In this document: in pieces, positions 1,218 to 36,075 of the stretch
How positions within the stretch are numbered: position 1 is the first letter of the stretch
Layout of the letters: each line of letters opens with the position of its first letter
Origin: Fibrobacter sp. UWR3
GTDB taxonomy: Bacteria > Fibrobacterota > Fibrobacteria > Fibrobacterales > Fibrobacteraceae
Assembly (NCBI RefSeq): GCF_900143055.1
Contig: NZ_FRCW01000007.1
Location: 62,001 to 126,000, forward strand
Direction of reading: 5' to 3'
DNA: 64,000 nt
Position numbers and translations under genes: made by a program
The notes under the pieces: generated by a model
Databases searched by the model: none
What the model was told of the DNA's origin: nothing
The model's input: only the letters and a program-made list of their open reading frames with translations

Positions 1218-1226
1218 TTTTTGGAC

Positions 1227-2564
1227 ATGTTCAAGAGAAAAATCCTTAAAGAATTTGAAAATTGGAAGATCTCGGGGGGCAAAAAGAAGGCCCTGGTTGT
1301 CAAGGGAATGCGTCAAATCGGCAAGACATCCAGCGTCCTGGAATTCGCCCGCAGCAACTACGAGAGCGTCGTCTATATCAACTTTAAGGAAAATGAAAAT
1401 GCGAAGAAGGTCTTCGACAACGACCTGAACGTGAGCAGGATTACCATAGACCTGTCAGCACTCTTTCCCAACGCTCATTTTGTCGAAAACAAGACTGTCA
1501 TCATCTTCGATGAAATTCAGGAATGTGCAAACGCCCGCGCAAGCATCAAGCCTTTTATGGAAGACGGTCGCTACGATGTCATCTGTACTGGATCCCTGCT
1601 TGGTATTAAGGGGTACAACCGTAAAAAGGGAAAAGGCGTCCCGACTGGCTTTGAAAGAATAATTTATATGAAACCCATGGACTTCGAGGAATTTCTGTGG
1701 GCAAAGGGCATAGGCGAAAACGTCATCGCATACCTGAAGGACTGCTACGAGAAAAAAGAACCCGTAAGCGAGGCGACGCATAACGCCATGCTCCGCTATT
1801 TCAAGGAATACCTTTGCGTGGGTGGCCTCCCTTATGTCGTTTCTCGATTTGTCGAGACGAACGACATGAACGTTGTTTGGCAGGAACAGCAGGACATTCT
1901 TGAAGAATATAAGGACGATTTCGGCAAACACCTTGACGAGAATGAAAACGAGGAAATTGACCGCACGCTTCTTGGCCGCATCAATCGCGTCTTTGATTCA
2001 ATTCCCGCCCAACTCGCGAAGGAAAACAACAAATTCGTTTATTCGCAACTAGAAAAGAAGGGTCGTTCCGAAAATTACCAAACCGCAATCCAATGGCTCT
2101 ACGACTGCGGCATAATCAACATTTGCCACAACCTGACCAACATCGCAGAACCTCTTGACGGCTACAAAATCGAAAACACCTTTAAAATTTATGTGCAGGA
2201 TTCCGGCCTGTTTGTCGCCATGCTGGAACGCGGCACCGCGGCCAAGATTCTAAGCGGCGATCTGGGATTCTATAAAGGTGCCATCTACGAGAACATCATC
2301 GCAGATTGTTTCTCTAAACAAGGTCGCAAACTATTCTACTTCCGCAAAGAATCCGGGCTAGAAATTGACTTTGTAGAAAATGTCGGCGGCGAACTCGCCA
2401 TTATTGAAGTCAAGGCAACAACGGGACGCTCCAAGTCGGCAAAGACCGTTCTGAGTAACGACAACTACGCAGCCAAGGTTTGCTACAAGCTTTCCGAAAA
2501 CAACATAGGTGTTGCGGGCAAGATGGTTACACTGCCATACTACATGGCAATGTTTTTGGAGTGA
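1227..2564 (+). CDS. AAA family ATPase with DUF4143 domain
   Basis: The 445-residue protein has the AAA_14/DUF4143 architecture. Near the N-terminus is a P-loop (GMRQIGKTS, around residue 26), followed by a Walker B-like strand (VIIFDEIQE, around residue 90) and a sensor-like CTGS. The C-terminal half is the DUF4143 region and ends with a PD-(D/E)xK-like strand (LEIDFV...AIIEVKA). Members of this family are widespread in bacteria, often in accessory regions, with poorly known function. I chose ATG 1227 rather than TTG 1221 because it gives the usual N-terminus. Its 3' end overlaps the convergent kptA gene by 25 bp. Phased repeats upstream suggest tight control. Confidence 0.85.
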   Translation: MFKRKILKEFENWKISGGKKKALVVKGMRQIGKTSSVLEFARSNYESVVYINFKENENAKKVFDNDLNVSRITIDLSALFPNAHFVENKTVIIFDEIQECANARASIKPFMEDGRYDVICTGSLLGIKGYNRKKGKGVPTGFERIIYMKPMDFEEFLWAKGIGENVIAYLKDCYEKKEPVSEATHNAMLRYFKEYLCVGGLPYVVSRFVETNDMNVVWQEQQDILEEYKDDFGKHLDENENEEIDRTLLGRINRVFDSIPAQLAKENNKFVYSQLEKKGRSENYQTAIQWLYDCGIINICHNLTNIAEPLDGYKIENTFKIYVQDSGLFVAMLERGTAAKILSGDLGFYKGAIYENIIADCFSKQGRKLFYFRKESGLEIDFVENVGGELAIIEVKATTGRSKSAKTVLSNDNYAAKVCYKLSENNIGVAGKMVTLPYYMAMFLE

Positions 2565-3981: not shown

Positions 3982-4662
3982 TCACCCCCCTTTTTTTCTT
4001 GCAATCCAATTTGGATAGTTATGGAATTCCGCATATTTCAAATACGTTCCAAAGACTTTTTCTGGCATGGCTCCATGGACAAGAACAATCTTGGGCGTGA
4101 GCGCTCGTAGGCATGCATCAAGTCCGGCTTCAAAATGATATTTGTCTTCTTTTGTCTTTATGCATCCGTAGGTGCTGATGACGATAATACTGTCGTGAGG
4201 GATTCCTGCAAATGCAATCGGTTCAGGCAACACGTCTGTCGTGTAAGTGTCGCGGCTGCCCCAGCGAACAAGTGCAAAAACGTCTATGCCTTGAGTTTGC
4301 CAATAATGGCTGATTGCATTCTTCTTGTAAACGTTTGCTATTTGCACGGTTAAGGGAGCATCCCTGTAAAGTGAACAATCGGGCGAAATAACCACAGGAA
4401 ACTTTTTGAGTTCTTTAGCATAGGCTTGGGGATTTCTCAGGACGTCGGCAAACATCGGGTCCATTTCGAAGAATCCGATACCCTCGCTATCCGTCGGAGC
4501 CTCGTTTCTGCGGCTAAACGGCGTAATTCCGCCAGGGATAAAGATTCTTTTGGGTTTGTCAATGACAGGAATCTCGAAAATGCCCTCAAAACGGGCGCTT
4601 TTTACTAGTTCAGGCTGAAAACCGTCATCAATAGCTGCTTTGGCTCTTTTGTTTTTAGACAT
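3982..4662 (-). CDS. DUF4417 domain-containing protein
   Basis: The 226-residue protein matches the DUF4417 pattern: IPGGITPFSRR, a segment FEMDPMFADVLRNPQAYAKELKKFPVVISPDCSLYRDAPLTVQIANVY (given here as two adjoining blocks), then ISHYWQTQGIDVFALVRWG and VISTYGCI. DUF4417 proteins are typical of phages, integrative elements and toxin-like loci; their biochemical role is not known to me. It is the first gene of the four-gene operon. A good ribosome site (AAGGAG) precedes ATG 4662. The next gene starts 1 bp after its TGA. The promoter region upstream carries several GCGAA palindromes. Confidence 0.8.
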   Translation of the reverse strand: MSKNKRAKAAIDDGFQPELVKSARFEGIFEIPVIDKPKRIFIPGGITPFSRRNEAPTDSEGIGFFEMDPMFADVLRNPQAYAKELKKFPVVISPDCSLYRDAPLTVQIANVYKKNAISHYWQTQGIDVFALVRWGSRDTYTTDVLPEPIAFAGIPHDSIIVISTYGCIKTKEDKYHFEAGLDACLRALTPKIVLVHGAMPEKVFGTYLKYAEFHNYPNWIARKKGG

Positions 4663-5732: not shown

Positions 5733-5905
5733 AAAAAAGGCGTGGTGTCGAATGCACATACACTACTGAGGCTCTGGTAAACCTATCCACAATATGTGCA
5801 AACGACCCACGCCCAAATTGAGCGAAGATTCTTTTTCATTGTGGATATTCTTGATTCGCCTAAAGCAAACGACCAGATTTTCAGTAGTGGAATCAGAAAT
5901 CTCTT
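5733..5905 (-). ncRNA. Structured RNA element A, downstream of the type IIG gene
   Basis: One of three fully folded copies of a new element. Helices in window coordinates: P1 5848-5857 with 5890-5899; terminal stem P3 5739-5750 with 5803-5813 (one bulged base), followed on the minus strand by six T; inner stem 5754-5760 with 5793-5799 (perfect 7 bp); long-range helix 5761-5769/5773-5778 with 5872-5877/5881-5889 (9+6 bp) around a spacer; an additional perfect 10-bp helix 5784-5793 with 5838-5847, which shares bases with the inner stem. It starts about 70 bp after the R-M gene stop, in the same direction. It could end that transcript or belong to a lost downstream gene. Confidence 0.65.
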
Positions 5906-5973: not shown

Positions 5974-8391
5974 TTATTTCAAAAAACCATATGAATACAC
6001 TTGGGGTTGAATTTTTTCAGATAGCGTTTTGTAAGCTTTTTCAAAGTGCTCAAAGTTAGTTGGAACAGTATTGCCAGATCCATTTTGAGCATTGAGAGCC
6101 TTGCATATTTGATACCACCCCACATCGGCACGATTCAATTTGAATTCGTCACGGATTTTGTGGTTGAACTGTTGCTTGAAATATTCTTGCCAAATTTTGC
6201 GACCTTCGTCAAGAACAGTTTGGGCTTCAACACTAAACGTTTTTCCTCTCATGTAACGAACCATAAAGTCGCTTTCGAAGCGACTGGACGCTCCAACCTC
6301 AGAGGCGGAGAAAGGAATAAAGTGATTGATTATATTCCACTTGCGGTTATTCCATTCAAGATTATTGGCGCTTGCGGTGAGATTTGAACCATTGAAGAGC
6401 ATATAAATCAAGCAATCGTTCTTGAATTCTTCGGAAAGGTCTGCGTTGGGTTGAAGGAATTGATCTCTATCATTAATCCAAGTATGAGGAATTACTTTTC
6501 TTACAGTAAAAACAACAGATACCTGCCATAAATTATTTTCTGTAACATATATTCCATGTCCTCCATTAAACCCCGAAGAGAAAAGTGCTGTTCTAGTGGG
6601 AGCCTGTTGCATATCATTGCTGTTGCACCAAAAATACGCAATTGCATTATCACACCATTGTGTCCCGCGCAAATCTTTCGTTGCTGTTCCCGGTGTCACT
6701 GCATTTTTTAGAGGAATACACAATTCCTTGTTGGGCTTTAGACGTTTAATCCATTTGGTAAGATAAGTATCAACGGGAATATTATAAAATGACTTACTTC
6801 CAACAGCATTAACATTTTTGTCAAGAATCTCACAGCTTATTTCAGAGGGGAACTCTGTCGGCTTATTCATAGTTTTCCAAATCAAAAAGCCTATTGGAAA
6901 TTCTCCTTTCAAACCCTCAAAGGACTTGCAATGAACAATAAATCCACCTAAATATTTCGCATTCCATTGAATTCTAAATTTTTCCATTGTTTGTGCATTT
7001 ATGTGTTTCAATGTACTAAACATCGCCAATGTTGCATTAGGAATTTCTTTTGAAATCCTTGCTACGAACTGCGTGTATAATTCATTACTCGCCTTGCCGA
7101 ATTCATCCATTCCTTTTCTAGCAAATTTTGTATCAGCAACGCCAATCTTACTAGCATCGGTACCCACGCCATTTACCGCATTATCAGAACTTGTCGCCTC
7201 TGCATACGGTGGATTTATCAGCACCAACAACTTTTTCTTACCTTCGTTCGCATCGTGGATCACATCGCGTAGGCTCTGCGGAATTTTATCTGTTAGGTTG
7301 TAATCAATTTTACCATCATTCGTAATATCATCGTTTAGGTAGTCGTACTGAAAACGTTCTGCTTCCACGCAGATCTTGGCAGATTTCATGATATTCACAT
7401 CTTCTTCGTCAAGTGTGCTCATAAAAAGATGGCGGTGGTTGCTATGCTTGGCCTCGAGGTTTCCTACTCCACAGCACATATCCCACACATAGTAATTTTT
7501 CTGCCAGTTTGCACCAAGCGTTTTTTCAAGCAAGTCGTAAGCCTTGTCAACCACTGGCAGAGGAGTGTAGTATGCTCCCTTGAAAGTTCTCTCTTCAACA
7601 GGAATCAAGCTATCGCGACGTTCTAATAAGTACGTTCGGTGTTTTTCTTCTGGCGGCCTATGGTATATCGTCCAAAAGTGGCTATAACCATCTGTAGATC
7701 CCAACTCATAAAGTTTTCCGTTTAAACTAAATACAGGATTATTCCCCTTATGCAACAGCTCTGCAGAAAGATGTTGATGGGTGCTAACCGTGCCATCACT
7801 CATAATGTCAGCATAAAAGAATTCGGCGTAGTTCTCAGGGGATGCTCCGACAATTTCTTTCCCGACCATCTCAACCCATTTGTCAAACACCTGTTTCAAA
7901 TTGTCGGGAGTAATCTGCGTGCGAATGATTTCGCCTTTATCAATGGCATTGCGGAAAGTGTCAATAAATTCTTGTTCGTGCGTTTCGATATTGAAGCTCA
8001 CAAAATGCGTGCCAATGTACTGGCTCACCATATCGAGTGCATCGCGGGTGACATCGCTTGCCGACTTACCCCACATGCTTTTCATTTTTTTATTTTGCAG
8101 AAGTGGAAGTGCCACATCGGTTTTCATAATAGCCGCTTTCACGCTATCAACCACACAAAGAAATGGCGGAATATATTCTCCATCATCCAAGGCCTTGTGA
8201 ATGTAAAAAAGCAACTGCGTAAACATTTCGTAGAGGGACTTCTTGGAGCCAAACTTGGCCTCGAACCAAACCTCGCGCGTCTGGATGTCGATGAGGTTAC
8301 GTTGCACGCCTTTAAGGTGCAATGCCTTGATGTACTCGGCTTTCACGTCTTCTTCGGACGAGGCTTTCTGCAGTCTTTCGAACAGGCTCAT
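5974..8391 (-). CDS. Type IIG restriction-modification enzyme (N6-adenine methyltransferase)
   Basis: The 805-residue protein fuses nuclease and methyltransferase. The N-terminus has a PD-(D/E)xK-like site (D35 ... E44-A-K46 in IDIQTREVWFEAK). The central methyltransferase has motif I-like WDMCCGVGNLE (about residue 303) and motif IV NPPYAEA (about residue 391), typical of gamma-class N6-adenine enzymes. The C-terminal 250 residues are probably the target-recognition part. Expected role: methylate and cut DNA at one specific site, alone, as phage defence. A good ribosome site (AAGGAG) precedes the ATG. No separate specificity or nuclease gene is nearby. It is flanked on both sides by the structured RNA elements A and B. 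Confidence 0.85.
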   Translation of the reverse strand: MSLFERLQKASSEEDVKAEYIKALHLKGVQRNLIDIQTREVWFEAKFGSKKSLYEMFTQLLFYIHKALDDGEYIPPFLCVVDSVKAAIMKTDVALPLLQNKKMKSMWGKSASDVTRDALDMVSQYIGTHFVSFNIETHEQEFIDTFRNAIDKGEIIRTQITPDNLKQVFDKWVEMVGKEIVGASPENYAEFFYADIMSDGTVSTHQHLSAELLHKGNNPVFSLNGKLYELGSTDGYSHFWTIYHRPPEEKHRTYLLERRDSLIPVEERTFKGAYYTPLPVVDKAYDLLEKTLGANWQKNYYVWDMCCGVGNLEAKHSNHRHLFMSTLDEEDVNIMKSAKICVEAERFQYDYLNDDITNDGKIDYNLTDKIPQSLRDVIHDANEGKKKLLVLINPPYAEATSSDNAVNGVGTDASKIGVADTKFARKGMDEFGKASNELYTQFVARISKEIPNATLAMFSTLKHINAQTMEKFRIQWNAKYLGGFIVHCKSFEGLKGEFPIGFLIWKTMNKPTEFPSEISCEILDKNVNAVGSKSFYNIPVDTYLTKWIKRLKPNKELCIPLKNAVTPGTATKDLRGTQWCDNAIAYFWCNSNDMQQAPTRTALFSSGFNGGHGIYVTENNLWQVSVVFTVRKVIPHTWINDRDQFLQPNADLSEEFKNDCLIYMLFNGSNLTASANNLEWNNRKWNIINHFIPFSASEVGASSRFESDFMVRYMRGKTFSVEAQTVLDEGRKIWQEYFKQQFNHKIRDEFKLNRADVGWYQICKALNAQNGSGNTVPTNFEHFEKAYKTLSEKIQPQVYSYGFLK

Positions 8392-8455
8392 TTTAACTCC
8401 TTGTATAAAAGTCCACTCGACTCTTACTCAGGAGCACAAAAACTTTAGCCAAAAC

Positions 8456-8662
8456 AAAAAAAAGGCGTGGAGTCGCAGCGCTTACCGAACCTGCGGGCTA
8501 CCACACCCTACCATACAATAAGCACAAACGACCCACGCCCAATATGGGCGTGAGCGTTCGTCTTACTCTCGTATGGATTGAAAGTGGTAGTTTCAGGTTC
8601 GAGAATAAGAGACGAATCTCAAAAATTCCGGTCGCTCCGCACCATTCGGTGAGAGCTATGTC
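8456..8662 (-). ncRNA. Structured RNA element B, leader of the type IIG R-M gene
   Basis: Second copy of the element, lying 65 bp upstream of the type IIG start and pointing into it. P1: 8561-8571 with 8600-8610, extendable by GTTCGTC/GACGAAT. P3: 8464-8475 with 8529-8539, then eight T on the minus strand. Inner stem: 8478-8484 with 8519-8525. Long-range helix: 8486-8493/8498-8504 with 8584-8590/8594-8601. Third helix: 8511-8516 with 8571-8576. A hairpin CACGCCC/GGGCGTG (8534-8540 with 8546-8552) would compete with P3. A promoter-like TTGTCGCA-N9-TATTTT lies just upstream (8691 to 8669). The G-U pair in the inner stem fits only the minus strand. Confidence 0.72.
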
Positions 8663-8668
8663 AATCTC

Positions 8669-8691
8669 AAAATAGCATATATTTGCGACAA
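8669..8691 (-). promoter_or_regulatory. TTGTCGCA-N9-TATTTT promoter-like element for RNA B and the R-M gene
   Basis: On the minus strand TTGTCGCA (8691-8684) is followed after 9 bases by TATTTT (8674-8669). The same arrangement occurs on the plus strand before the tandem AAA ATPase, the WYL regulator and the zinc-ribbon gene. A transcript would begin near 8662, just upstream of element B. The spacing is too short for a normal -35/-10 pair, so the 8-mer may be an operator or activator site next to the -10 box. Confidence 0.5.
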
Positions 8692-8813
8692 ATATATCTG
8701 CATCCGCAATTTTTTGAAAAATTTCGCGTTTTTCTCTTGACGACAGTTTGTAATTAGTGTATATTTGTGCAGTAGTTCCTGTTTTTTCTTGCTTGTAAAC
8801 AGAGGTGTATGAT

Positions 8814-33526: not shown

Positions 33527-34279
33527 TTAACCGCCGGCGGCTTTTTTGCATTTTAATATGGGAACGTCAGAATCGTTAAAGTACCTGATTTTTATATCAT
33601 TCCATCTAGGGATATTAAGCCTTATCCCATAAAATTTGTTGTAACTACTAACTAATTTTTCTGACCAGGTTTCTGCTAGATAATTTGTTTCGTGGTATTT
33701 GTATATTGTTTGTTCTAGAGCGGATAAAAAGTCTTCTAGACATTCGAAGACAGGATATTCTGCTTTTTCAGAATACCATGTTGCGGGACGAATGTTGACA
33801 ATGGTCTTATTTTTATATTGAACCTTAAGAGGAAATTTACTACTTGTACAACTGATTTCCCAAACCTTTTTAAGCCAAAAATCTTCAATGGTGACGACGC
33901 CGTTTTCCATTTTATATTTGATAAGAAGATATTGTGATTGTAACTTGTATGGCTTTTCAATGATGAGGTTTATAAAACTTCTAAAGGCAGCAATATCAAA
34001 ATTAGGTGATCCCGTAAAAGATTTAATTTCGAGCCAATCTTCGGAAAGATTATTTGGATTAAGCCAAAAGTCAGGGGATTCCTGCTTTAGATTATGAATG
34101 TTGGGAATGCCTTTGCTGTCTAGCCATTTGGCTATCCATTCCTCCAAGATATTGCCAATAATATTATTTTGATCAACAGTTATGTTGAAATCTTTTAATG
34201 AGAACTGGACTGAACCGGATGCGCCATTGAATCCGAAGTCATTTTTCAATTGGTCAAATATTTCGTTTGCTTTGCTCAT
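33527..34279 (-). CDS. Type II restriction endonuclease, NgoBV/NlaIV-like
   Basis: The 250-residue protein lies 4 bp after the C5-methyltransferase gene. It has a PD-(D/E)xK nuclease core: IIGNILEEWIAKWL, then SPDFWLNPNNLSEDWLEIKSF, where the PD and E-I-K supply the metal ligands, and FRSFINLIIEKPYKLQ. The form matches what I recall of the NgoBV family (target GGNNCC), but the specificity is not proven by sequence alone. The ATG at 34279 is preferred over the longer frame because it follows the methyltransferase stop directly. The gene is AT-rich compared with neighbours, consistent with horizontal transfer. Confidence 0.75.
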   Translation of the reverse strand: MSKANEIFDQLKNDFGFNGASGSVQFSLKDFNITVDQNNIIGNILEEWIAKWLDSKGIPNIHNLKQESPDFWLNPNNLSEDWLEIKSFTGSPNFDIAAFRSFINLIIEKPYKLQSQYLLIKYKMENGVVTIEDFWLKKVWEISCTSSKFPLKVQYKNKTIVNIRPATWYSEKAEYPVFECLEDFLSALEQTIYKYHETNYLAETWSEKLVSSYNKFYGIRLNIPRWNDIKIRYFNDSDVPILKCKKAAGG

Positions 34280-34283
34280 TGTA

Positions 34284-35576
34284 TTACCTAATGCTTGAAA
34301 TAAGGCGCTTGCAAACTGCTTTGATAACGGGAACAACAACAGTGTTGCCTAGTAGATCGAAACCGTTTTTTTCATTAATATCAAACTTGAAATTTTCTGG
34401 ATAACCGAACAATCGTAGACCTTCGCGTAATGTAAATTTACGAAGTCCCCCGTCATCTACAACGTAAAGTTTTTGCATGTCCATGGCTACTAAGGTTGGG
34501 GCTATATCATTTGGATCTAGTATTTTGTTGATTTCAAAACTTAATTTGCCGGCAACAATATTGTAACCTTTAGGTAGACTAGTATCATACTCTCTATAGG
34601 ATACTCCGTTCTCTACAATTTTCTTTTTAGGATGCTCGTAAACAATATACCCTTTTTTTACAAGGCCGTTTAAAAGAGATGTTAGTTTTTTGCTAGGGTA
34701 AAAACTAGCAATCATTTCCTCTGTCAAAGGCATTCCGTCCATCCAGTCAATGTTGTATATTTCTGCCCATTTCTTTTTCCTTCGTTCGGTTAGGATTTTG
34801 TCAAGAAGTTTTCTTTCCTCTTTGGTTGTTTTTCCCTTTATTTCTAAATCCCAACTATGGATGTTTGATTTTCCTCCTCTCTTGTCTTTTATAGATTTTC
34901 CATACAGTTCGTCTATACGGAATTTTGATAAAAGCAGGCGAATAAACTTACTATCTTCGGTGGGTTTCCCTTTTTCTAGAATATCTGATAATTTTTTCCT
35001 TTCTAAAGGAAAATCATCTAAAGAAATTTTCTTTGAGAATGTGCCAGTAATATAAATTCGCTTGCGTTCCTGTGGAACTCCGAAATTTTTAGAGTTTATT
35101 ACTTTATATGAAACCTTGTATCCAATGTCCTCTAAATGCGATAAAATTACTTGAAGAGTGCGGCCTTTATCGTGATTGACTAAGCCCTCAACATTTTCAA
35201 GAATGAAGCCTTTTGGTTTTTTTGTTTTCAAAATCCGTTCTACGTCAAAAAAGAGCGTGCCTCGTGTGTCAGCAAAGCCTTCTCTTTTTCCGGCAGCCGA
35301 GAAAGCTTGGCAAGGAAAACCAGCACATAAAATGTCAAAATCGGGGATGTCTTTGGCGTCAACTTTGGTAATGTCACCAATGATTTTTTCATTAGGATGA
35401 TTTTGTTTTAGTATTGAAATTGCGTGTGGCTTGATTTCTGAGGTAAAAACGCATTCTGACACAAAGCCACATTCATGGATGGCTGATTCTAATCCAGCTC
35501 GAATGCCACCGATGCCGGCAAATAAATCAATGAATTTGATTACATTGGTGTTTTTGCTGCTCTTTTTTTTAGTCAT
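34284..35576 (-). CDS. DNA cytosine-5 methyltransferase
   Basis: The 430-residue protein has all main C5-methyltransferase motifs: I FIDLFAGIGGIRAGLE (residues 15-30), IV AGFPCQAFSAAGKREGF with catalytic Cys89, VI ENVEGL (127-132), VIII ERKRIYITGTF, and the C-terminal IX-X (LRLFGYPENFKF, LLGNTVVVPVI). A long central insert between VIII and IX is the target-recognition region. It protects DNA from the nuclease encoded directly downstream. A GGAG ribosome site precedes the ATG. Its leader (element D) and the upstream RNA element C belong to the structured family also found at the type IIG locus. The operon is AT-rich relative to the surroundings. Confidence 0.93.
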   Translation of the reverse strand: MTKKKSSKNTNVIKFIDLFAGIGGIRAGLESAIHECGFVSECVFTSEIKPHAISILKQNHPNEKIIGDITKVDAKDIPDFDILCAGFPCQAFSAAGKREGFADTRGTLFFDVERILKTKKPKGFILENVEGLVNHDKGRTLQVILSHLEDIGYKVSYKVINSKNFGVPQERKRIYITGTFSKKISLDDFPLERKKLSDILEKGKPTEDSKFIRLLLSKFRIDELYGKSIKDKRGGKSNIHSWDLEIKGKTTKEERKLLDKILTERRKKKWAEIYNIDWMDGMPLTEEMIASFYPSKKLTSLLNGLVKKGYIVYEHPKKKIVENGVSYREYDTSLPKGYNIVAGKLSFEINKILDPNDIAPTLVAMDMQKLYVVDDGGLRKFTLREGLRLFGYPENFKFDINEKNGFDLLGNTVVVPVIKAVCKRLISSIR

Positions 35577-35790
35577 TTCTGCTCCGCATCAAGAGTGAAC
35601 GAGCCACTCTCGTTGGAGCTTTAACCGCGACTTTTCAAAAGAACAACATACATGCACAATATCTAGCGCATATGGAATGTGCTAGACATACTACGCCCAC
35701 ATGATAAAGTGGGTGTTGCGAGTTGTTGTCTTATTCTATGTACCTGAAATTGTCGAGATTTCTAGCTAAGAACAAGAGTAAAACTCTAAT
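35577..35790 (-). ncRNA. Element D: structured 5' leader of the C5-methyltransferase gene
   Basis: A divergent relative of elements A-C lying directly before the methyltransferase start. P1 is kept: 35729-35737 with 35769-35777. Its loop carries GTCGAGA-TT-TCTAGCTAA (plus strand 35752-35769), nearly identical to the P1 loop of element C. The hairpin equivalent to P2 is also visible (CGCCCAC/GTGGGTG around 35694-35715). The P3 stem with T-run and the complementary loop are absent, replaced by other dyads (CTAGC...GCTAG). So the 5' half of the element is fused to the mRNA. Confidence 0.5.
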
Positions 35791-35834
35791 TTGAGTTAAC
35801 TCTTGTTCAGCATCATTCCAGTCTGTTTGAAAAC

Positions 35835-36075
35835 AAAAAGGCGTGGAGTTGAATGCGCTTATCAGCTAGAGGCTCTCGACTGCCCGATACAAATATACAC
35901 AAACAACTCACGCCCCATAAAGGCCGTAAAGTTAAAAGACAAATGAAATTTGCCTTCAACAAAAACGATACGGCAAAGAGATTTGCCGCAGACGTGAGCG
36001 TTCGTCCTATCCTCTATATCTGGAAATTGTCGAGATTTCTAGCTGAGAATAAGAGAAAACCCTATTTTGGAGAAA
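35835..36075 (-). ncRNA. Structured RNA element C, upstream of the type II R-M operon
   Basis: P1: 36005-36014 with 36045-36054. P3: 35840-35851 with 35904-35914, then five T, one G and four T on the minus strand. Inner stem: 35854-35858 with 35897-35901 (two G-U pairs, minus strand only). Long-range helix: 35862-35870/35874-35880 with 36029-36035/36038-36046 (9+7 bp). Third helix: 35890-35897 with 36015-36022. Between P1 and P3 there is an extra insertion of about 75 nt that includes a perfect 7-bp hairpin (CGGCAAA/TTTGCCG). A spurious 77-codon plus-strand frame covers it. Confidence 0.7.

Follow-up and report, generated by a model that had tools for sequence, protein, structure and literature searches.

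The window, by which we mean the whole stretch of 64,000 nucleotides of Fibrobacter sp. UWR3 DNA that was analysed, carries on its minus strand a gene for an 805-aa protein resembling type IIG restriction-modification (R-M) enzymes (5974..8391, profile match). The protein has no Pfam or NCBIfam match. Five of its homologues have the motifs DMCCGVGN and NPPY in common, and a profile of the homologues matches N6 methyltransferases (probability 95.8%, E 7.6e-9). An N6-adenine methyltransferase domain is supported, and we consider a type IIG enzyme a plausible identity, with the reservation that the nuclease part (an N-terminal EVWFEAKFG resembling a PD-(D/E)XK core) was recognized by eye only. 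A nearly identical ATPase-like protein, MFKRKILKEFENWKISGGKKKALVVKGMRQIGKTSS, is encoded near element B (window 1221-2564) and near a C2 copy in another locus (L022:7874-9211).

Upstream of the R-M gene lies element B, whose minus-strand T-run ends at 8456, 64 nt from the gene start at 8391. The minus-strand fold of B is more stable than those of shuffled sequences (z -5.9, with 0/200 shuffles as good), and the plus-strand fold gives z -5.0. Its pairing exceeds chance because the element recurs: the covariance model R1 scores B at 135 bits, element C (35834..36055, minus strand, with a long apical domain) at 121 bits, and the degraded copy A (5733..5898, minus strand) at 50 bits. Behind C lie genes for a C5 methyltransferase (34284-35576, PF00145, E 3e-87) and an NgoBV-type endonuclease (33527-34339, RE_NgoBV, E 4e-62). 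Element A is a partial copy with rod mismatches: the terminator helices Pf and Pg are kept, a rod strand is lost and the rod helix is broken. A similar copy occurs in another genome (L105:1707-1874), and A may be a natural candidate for a locked-off leader.

Reading B from 5′ to 3′ on the minus strand, an AT-rich promoter-like region (8666..8696, identified by its sequence, with similar motifs upstream of other copies) is followed by a conserved GACATAG at about 8656-8662, the probable transcript start. This precedes the first leader hairpin, GCTCTCACCGAATGGTGCGGAGC (8634..8656), which folds in B and is represented by a hairpin of varying sequence in most of the class 1 copies read. An 8-codon frame within it, MVRSDRNF, was tried as a leader peptide and rejected, as copies with a different hairpin sequence do not preserve it. 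The P0 hairpin GAGA-TTCG-TCTC (8609..8620) takes in the 5′ part of strand S1; AGAG/GAGA...CTCT/TCTC occurs here in most copies read, without a formal count. S1 itself (CTCTTATTCTC, 8601..8611) has as partners a′ (helix Pa) or S1* beyond the terminator (helix Ph), and both helices covary.

The 5′ strand of P-b, GAACCTG (8594..8600), comes next, followed by the hairpin GAAA[CTACCAC]TTTC (8580..8594), whose first base is common to the annotated end of P-b and whose bracketed loop kisses a 3′ loop (helix k), and by the 5′ strand of P-d (8571..8576). Strand a′ (GAGAGTAAGAC, 8560..8570) pairs with S1 in the terminator state or with CTTAT of e′ in the rod state, as judged from comparative pairing. 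Strand e (CGAACGCTCACGCCC, 8546..8560) is the 5′ strand of the antiterminator (rod) helix P-e, supported by pairing counts; the apical loop between e and e′ is a trimmed region of 6-8 nt in class 1 and spans 75-90 nt in long-apical copies. The shared strand e′ (GGGCGTGGGTCGTTTGTGCTTAT, 8518..8540) pairs with e in the rod or with f′ and g′ in the terminator, again by comparative pairing.

The 3′ half consists of the second strand of P-d (8511..8516), the second kissing hairpin GGG[TGTGGTA]GCCC (8495..8508), the second strand of P-b (8487..8493), g′ (8478..8485), which pairs with the end of e′ as helix Pg in the terminator state, f′ (CGACTCCACGCC, 8464-8475), the 3′ strand of the terminator helix Pf, and a T-run, T8 (8456-8463), evident in the sequence. 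P-b, k, P-d, Pg and Pf are all supported by covariation. Past the T-run lies S1* (GAGTAAGAG, 8421..8429), complementary to S1 (S1:S1* covariation) and, according to the folds, the 5′ strand of a hairpin (CTCC...GGAG, 8397..8434) that would sequester the ribosome-binding site of the gene. This hairpin is seen in the fold of B, and similar ones in many of 92 folded leaders, without a control.

The core of e′, GGCGTGGGTCG (8529-8539), can find its partner either at 8546-8560, giving a hairpin, or at 8464-8475, giving the T-tailed stem. Since e′ is complementary to both e and f′ and the two pairings use common bases, they are mutually exclusive. The original prediction, made from the sequence alone, had paired 8529-8539 with 8464-8475 or 8546-8556, placed the T-run 65 bp before the R-M start codon and a promoter-like element just before B, and seen the same competition in element C (CTCACG/CGTGAG). 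All of these claims held, the pairings on the minus strand and the distance as the 64 nt given above.

Distribution of the element

As a DNA query, element B found about a dozen matching places in its own genome. Eleven of these copies, with the apical part cut out, were aligned for RNAalifold and for building R1; the resulting structure has 37 pairs, 19 of them with compensatory changes. R1 recovers 13 copies in the same genome, 1-18 copies in each of 79/80 Fibrobacter genomes and, across the phylum, copies in 93/168 genomes from 8/41 genera, much diverged in other families. A conserved 23-base pattern also matches F. succinogenes, F. intestinalis and many Fibrobacter MAGs. Its occurrences in Pseudomonas (L180, L219, L224) were rejected as chance, with no R1 match. 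The element was also matched in MAG contigs named Bacteroidales and Treponema. At least one of them (L220) shares its downstream gene with a Fibrobacter copy, which makes mis-binning as likely as transfer.

No Rfam family matches the window at the gathering score, and at lax thresholds nothing credible lies near B (best match 16.7 bits against a cut-off of 44). No tRNA or tmRNA was found, and viral contigs and phage and plasmid collections held no match to the element.

Several variants were observed. Class 2 copies, with the long apical domain and the terminator strand AACGATCTGCGCC or similar (L025:5532-5764, L026, L027, L028, L070, L071, L072, L074, L085, L090, L113, L142, L160), lie mostly upstream of genes for secreted, lipo- and membrane proteins, and might form a separate regulon. 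Strongly diverged copies from other families of the phylum, several per genome (L292, L295, L297, L299, L300 and L301 in genome G081; L293, L296 and L298 in genome G108), mostly precede genes for secreted and lipoproteins. At 35765-35808 of the window, a second 5′ half (S1, the P-b strand, a kissing hairpin and a′) follows the first terminator without a 3′ half of its own. Extra 5′ halves after the T-run also occur in L025, L024, L093 and L098, which are C-type leaders of C5 methyltransferase or Tsp45I-type systems; conceivably, they could compete for the 3′ strands of the first copy.

Two exclusive folds preserved by evolution

In 101 distinct copies, 96.7% of the cells in the rod helices P-b, k, P-d and P-e are paired, against 26-49% in slid controls, and there are 768 double-change cells against 212 after shuffling (0/500). 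P-b is 97.6% paired, with double changes at 8/9 pairs and one pair that is standard in 99/101 copies where 37.7 are expected. The kissing-loop helix k (88% paired) shows double changes at 5/5 pairs and P-d (98.2%) at 7/7. Within the genus P-e is 98.2% paired and nearly invariant, so that its support there rests on pair-preserving changes: the pair is preserved in 124/130 substitutions of the 5′ strand, and G-U pairs make up 25% of the helix. In 30 sequences including other genera and families, P-e remains 96.7% paired, with double changes at 13/14 pairs. The alignment behind this last count (A7) was fitted to the rod structure, and the rod counts therefore lean that way.

The terminator-state helices Pa, Pg and Pf are absent from the search model R1. 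In the same 101 copies they are 97.7% paired (slid controls 42-64%), with 52 double-change cells against 11.6 shuffled, a value reached in 0/500 shuffles. Pa, the S1:a′ helix, has 97.3% of its cells paired and double changes at 7/10 pairs. A 5-pair block of Pg is 99.6% paired and includes 3 pairs with double changes; its key pair is kept in 100/101 copies against 83.4 expected. The proximal part of Pf is 98.4% paired, and its distal pairs contribute 15 compensatory cells; taken as a stem followed by a T-run, Pf is 98-99% paired in the 101 copies and the T-run is present in nearly all.

In distant copies f′ and g′ re-match e′ with different sequence, giving duplexes of -19 to -28 kcal/mol in 7/11 (including L296, -25.7), and these duplexes are free of the rod-fitting bias of A7. 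Several distant copies have only a weak Pa duplex. The copies are related, so that not all compensatory cells are independent events; the key covariation is retained after dereplication to 80% (29 sequences) and 75% identity (17 sequences). The comparison shows that both exclusive folds have been preserved by evolution. It also shows that all helices except P0 and the ribosome-site hairpin covary, and that position and strand are constant.

S1 has further conserved alternative partners: besides a′, it can pair with upstream sequence and with the site beyond the terminator. In many loci it is complementary to S1*, which lies 12-45 nt past the T-run. With the base under test masked in the search template, an A in S1 is accompanied by T in S1* in 19 cases (2 C) and a G by C in 10/10 (p = 1.5e-6); in one locus CTCTCGTTC goes together with GAACGAG. 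Some loci lack S1*, and none was seen in distant families. Where present, it is often the 5′ strand of a hairpin covering the ribosome-binding site or start codon, e.g. ATAAGGGC-TAGAAGGA-GCCCTTATG, for which there is no shuffle control. A translational layer of control is a possible inference from this arrangement.

When B is folded only as far as the T-run, the computed energy of the rod is -85.4 kcal/mol and that of the terminator state -78.2 kcal/mol. These values leave out the pseudoknotted loop-loop helices, whose free duplexes would contribute -8.9, -9.1 and -5.9 kcal/mol. The minimum without pseudoknots is the rod; the computed balance between the two states is close. In folds of a lengthening transcript, which reflect equilibrium and not kinetics, Pa precedes the rod: it appears at 100-145 nt, the rod once the length reaches about 160 nt. 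The terminator stem spans a structured loop of roughly 60 nt, unlike classical terminators.

Genes downstream of the element

A gene starts on the same strand 15-140 nt downstream of 91/101 copies, against 1/101 in the divergent control. AT-rich promoter-like motifs occur upstream of 84/101 copies and in 0/101 of the spacers between element and gene, with the caveat that the list of motifs was compiled from the upstream regions, which biases it towards them. A promoter of the R-M gene's own after 8456 would have counted against the original prediction; within the limits of that list, none of the upstream kind is seen.

Clustering the first gene behind each copy gave 52 clusters, of which 47 are usable non-redundant families. 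With Pfam support, at least 24/47 are R-M or related families spanning types I, II, IIG and III: type I HsdM and HsdR, IIG/MmeI, type III Mod, C5, D12 and EcoRI-type methyltransferases, Tsp45I, Mrr-helicase, and SNF2/ResIII helicases. PADLOC agrees with Pfam on these clients. No R-M family is among the 25 commonest Pfam families of the upstream neighbours, single matches beyond these not being excluded. The comparison of 24/47 downstream with 0/44 upstream families gives a Fisher p of about 3e-9, and a methyltransferase motif is found in 17/47 downstream against 0/44 upstream families.

Most of the remaining clients are secreted or lipoproteins, TM2, TPR and DUF4417 proteins; among the clients visible in distant families, secreted and lipoproteins dominate. 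A role restricted to R-M genes is thereby ruled out. Of the methyltransferase loci in its own genome, six have the element in front and at least four lack it; with only about half of them so equipped, the element is not required for such genes.

A protein of roughly 224 aa with weak similarity to DUF4417 is encoded behind the first of two consecutive elements in several loci (L097:5588-6298, L084, L096, L080, L133), the second element preceding a further gene, often of an R-M system. A DUF4417 gene also lies downstream of element A (window 3982-4662). The DUF4417-like protein could be a defence-linked family, which we mention only as a possibility.

Explanations for the element and their meaning

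In our view, B is likely a copy of a phylum-specific, cis-acting terminator/antiterminator leader, located in the 5′ leader of the R-M gene. Termination, read-through and regulation are inferred. Transcription would start near 8660, and the 5′ strand S1 would pair first with a′. Once made, e′ would pair with e (P-e), and the downstream strands would add P-d, the kissing-loop helix and P-b to give the long rod, while the emerging f′ and g′ would compete for e′. If f′ and g′ won, so that Pf and Pg formed while Pa kept hold of S1, a G+C-rich stem would stand immediately ahead of the T-run, transcription would stop at about 8456-8463 and the gene would be off. If the rod held, the polymerase would read through and the gene would be on. 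In the read-through RNA, S1, free in the rod, may pair with S1* and break the hairpin over the ribosome-binding site, providing a second, translational layer. The direction of the switch, co-transcription with the gene and the translational layer are likewise inferences. As a trigger, a phage-specific cue would suit the mixed clientele of R-M and surface proteins less well than a global factor or signal would, or than a fold that is intrinsically bistable.

The original prediction had proposed such a terminator/antiterminator switch, and this is supported by covariation, by position and by the lack of promoter-like spacer motifs; the regulation remains inferred, with no expression data. Its competing pairings held and are extended by the more conserved alternative helices of S1. 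Its focus on this one R-M gene has to be widened: the family is genus-wide and, in distant form, phylum-wide, and for at least a third of its copies the gene behind is of another kind, largely one for a secreted or lipoprotein. It had also suggested that the loop-loop helix could decide between the folds. This is not shown: the helix is compatible with both. Overall, the inference of switching rests on evolution and is a strong one; it is not shown that the gene is regulated, in which direction, or by what trigger.

A first alternative is a small-RNA gene with a constitutive terminator, whose product of roughly 200 nt would act in trans or on a protein, the neighbouring gene having its own promoter and being merely linked. 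The strong conserved terminator, the promoter-like region of its own and the 1-18 copies per genome speak for it. It is nevertheless unlikely, given the constant strand and the 15-140 nt to gene starts in 91/101 copies, the 0/101 spacers with an upstream-kind promoter-like motif and the covariation of S1 with a site beyond the terminator. In addition, a conserved helix competing with the terminator would be useless in a constitutive one.

A second alternative, really a sub-case of the leader reading with a metabolite as trigger, is a ligand-binding riboswitch in which the kissing-loop junction is a small-molecule aptamer. The compact junction with two kissing hairpins beside the terminator choice would suit it, and the layout is like that of a terminator-embedded aptamer, the HMP-PP riboswitch (PMC6478431). 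We doubt this reading, as the junction covaries freely and has few invariant unpaired bases, unlike known aptamers, and no obvious metabolite is common to R-M and secreted-protein clients. Least credible of all is a dispersed mobile repeat (MITE- or REP-like) or recombination site hitchhiking with defence genes without a regulatory role: it would fit the many copies, the linkage to horizontally moving genes and degraded copies such as A, but copies within one genome diverge widely with all helices kept, a quarter of P-e being G-U pairs fits RNA, strand and distance to gene starts are fixed, phage and plasmid collections hold no match, and the element is conserved in distant families with other clients.

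The preferred reading, a terminator/antiterminator leader, resembles known riboswitch and attenuator leaders in its position, T-tailed stem, exclusive helix and clade-wide conservation. It differs from them in having no known ligand, leader peptide or protein, in a choice linked to a kissing-loop helix common to both folds, and in a 5′ strand that can pair elsewhere too, including at a site past the terminator. As in the HMP-PP (thiS) riboswitch, a structured domain sits inside the terminator hairpin; that RNA senses a metabolite (PMC6478431), whereas the terminator loop of the element pairs with a separate 5′ hairpin and its clients are R-M and secreted-protein genes. The Fibro-purF motif and other Fibrobacter RNA motifs are, like the element, structured RNAs restricted to Fibrobacter; the difference is that no Rfam family matches the window at the gathering score.

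The usual view is that C proteins, reverse promoters or phase variation control R-M genes. Control by antisense RNAs and C proteins is similar to the proposed case in that R-M expression is regulated and the antisense RNA base-pairs, but it works via reverse promoters or DNA-binding proteins (PMC3874152). That 2013 review of R-M regulation treats antisense RNAs and does not contain the word riboswitch (PMC3874152). In the mostly open-access literature searched, we came across neither such an RNA nor such R-M control, which is weak evidence for novelty.

A bolder reading, which we regard as no more than possible, is a phylum-wide switch in which at least three exclusive pairings of one 5′ strand control R-M and surface-protein genes in both transcription and translation. 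If this were true, R-M systems would be silent or expressed according to infection or physiological state, or by per-transcript bet hedging, and the element would be an RNA-level counterpart of phase variation acting on the same two gene classes. The leader reading itself has narrower consequences. If R-M genes of types I, II, IIG and III have a leader RNA in common within one genus, a single RNA switch would have repeatedly taken control of unrelated defence genes, and their joint control would be directly testable. Beyond this, the support for two exclusive RNA folds kept by evolution is unusually good here, and the element may be useful for the study of RNA switching.
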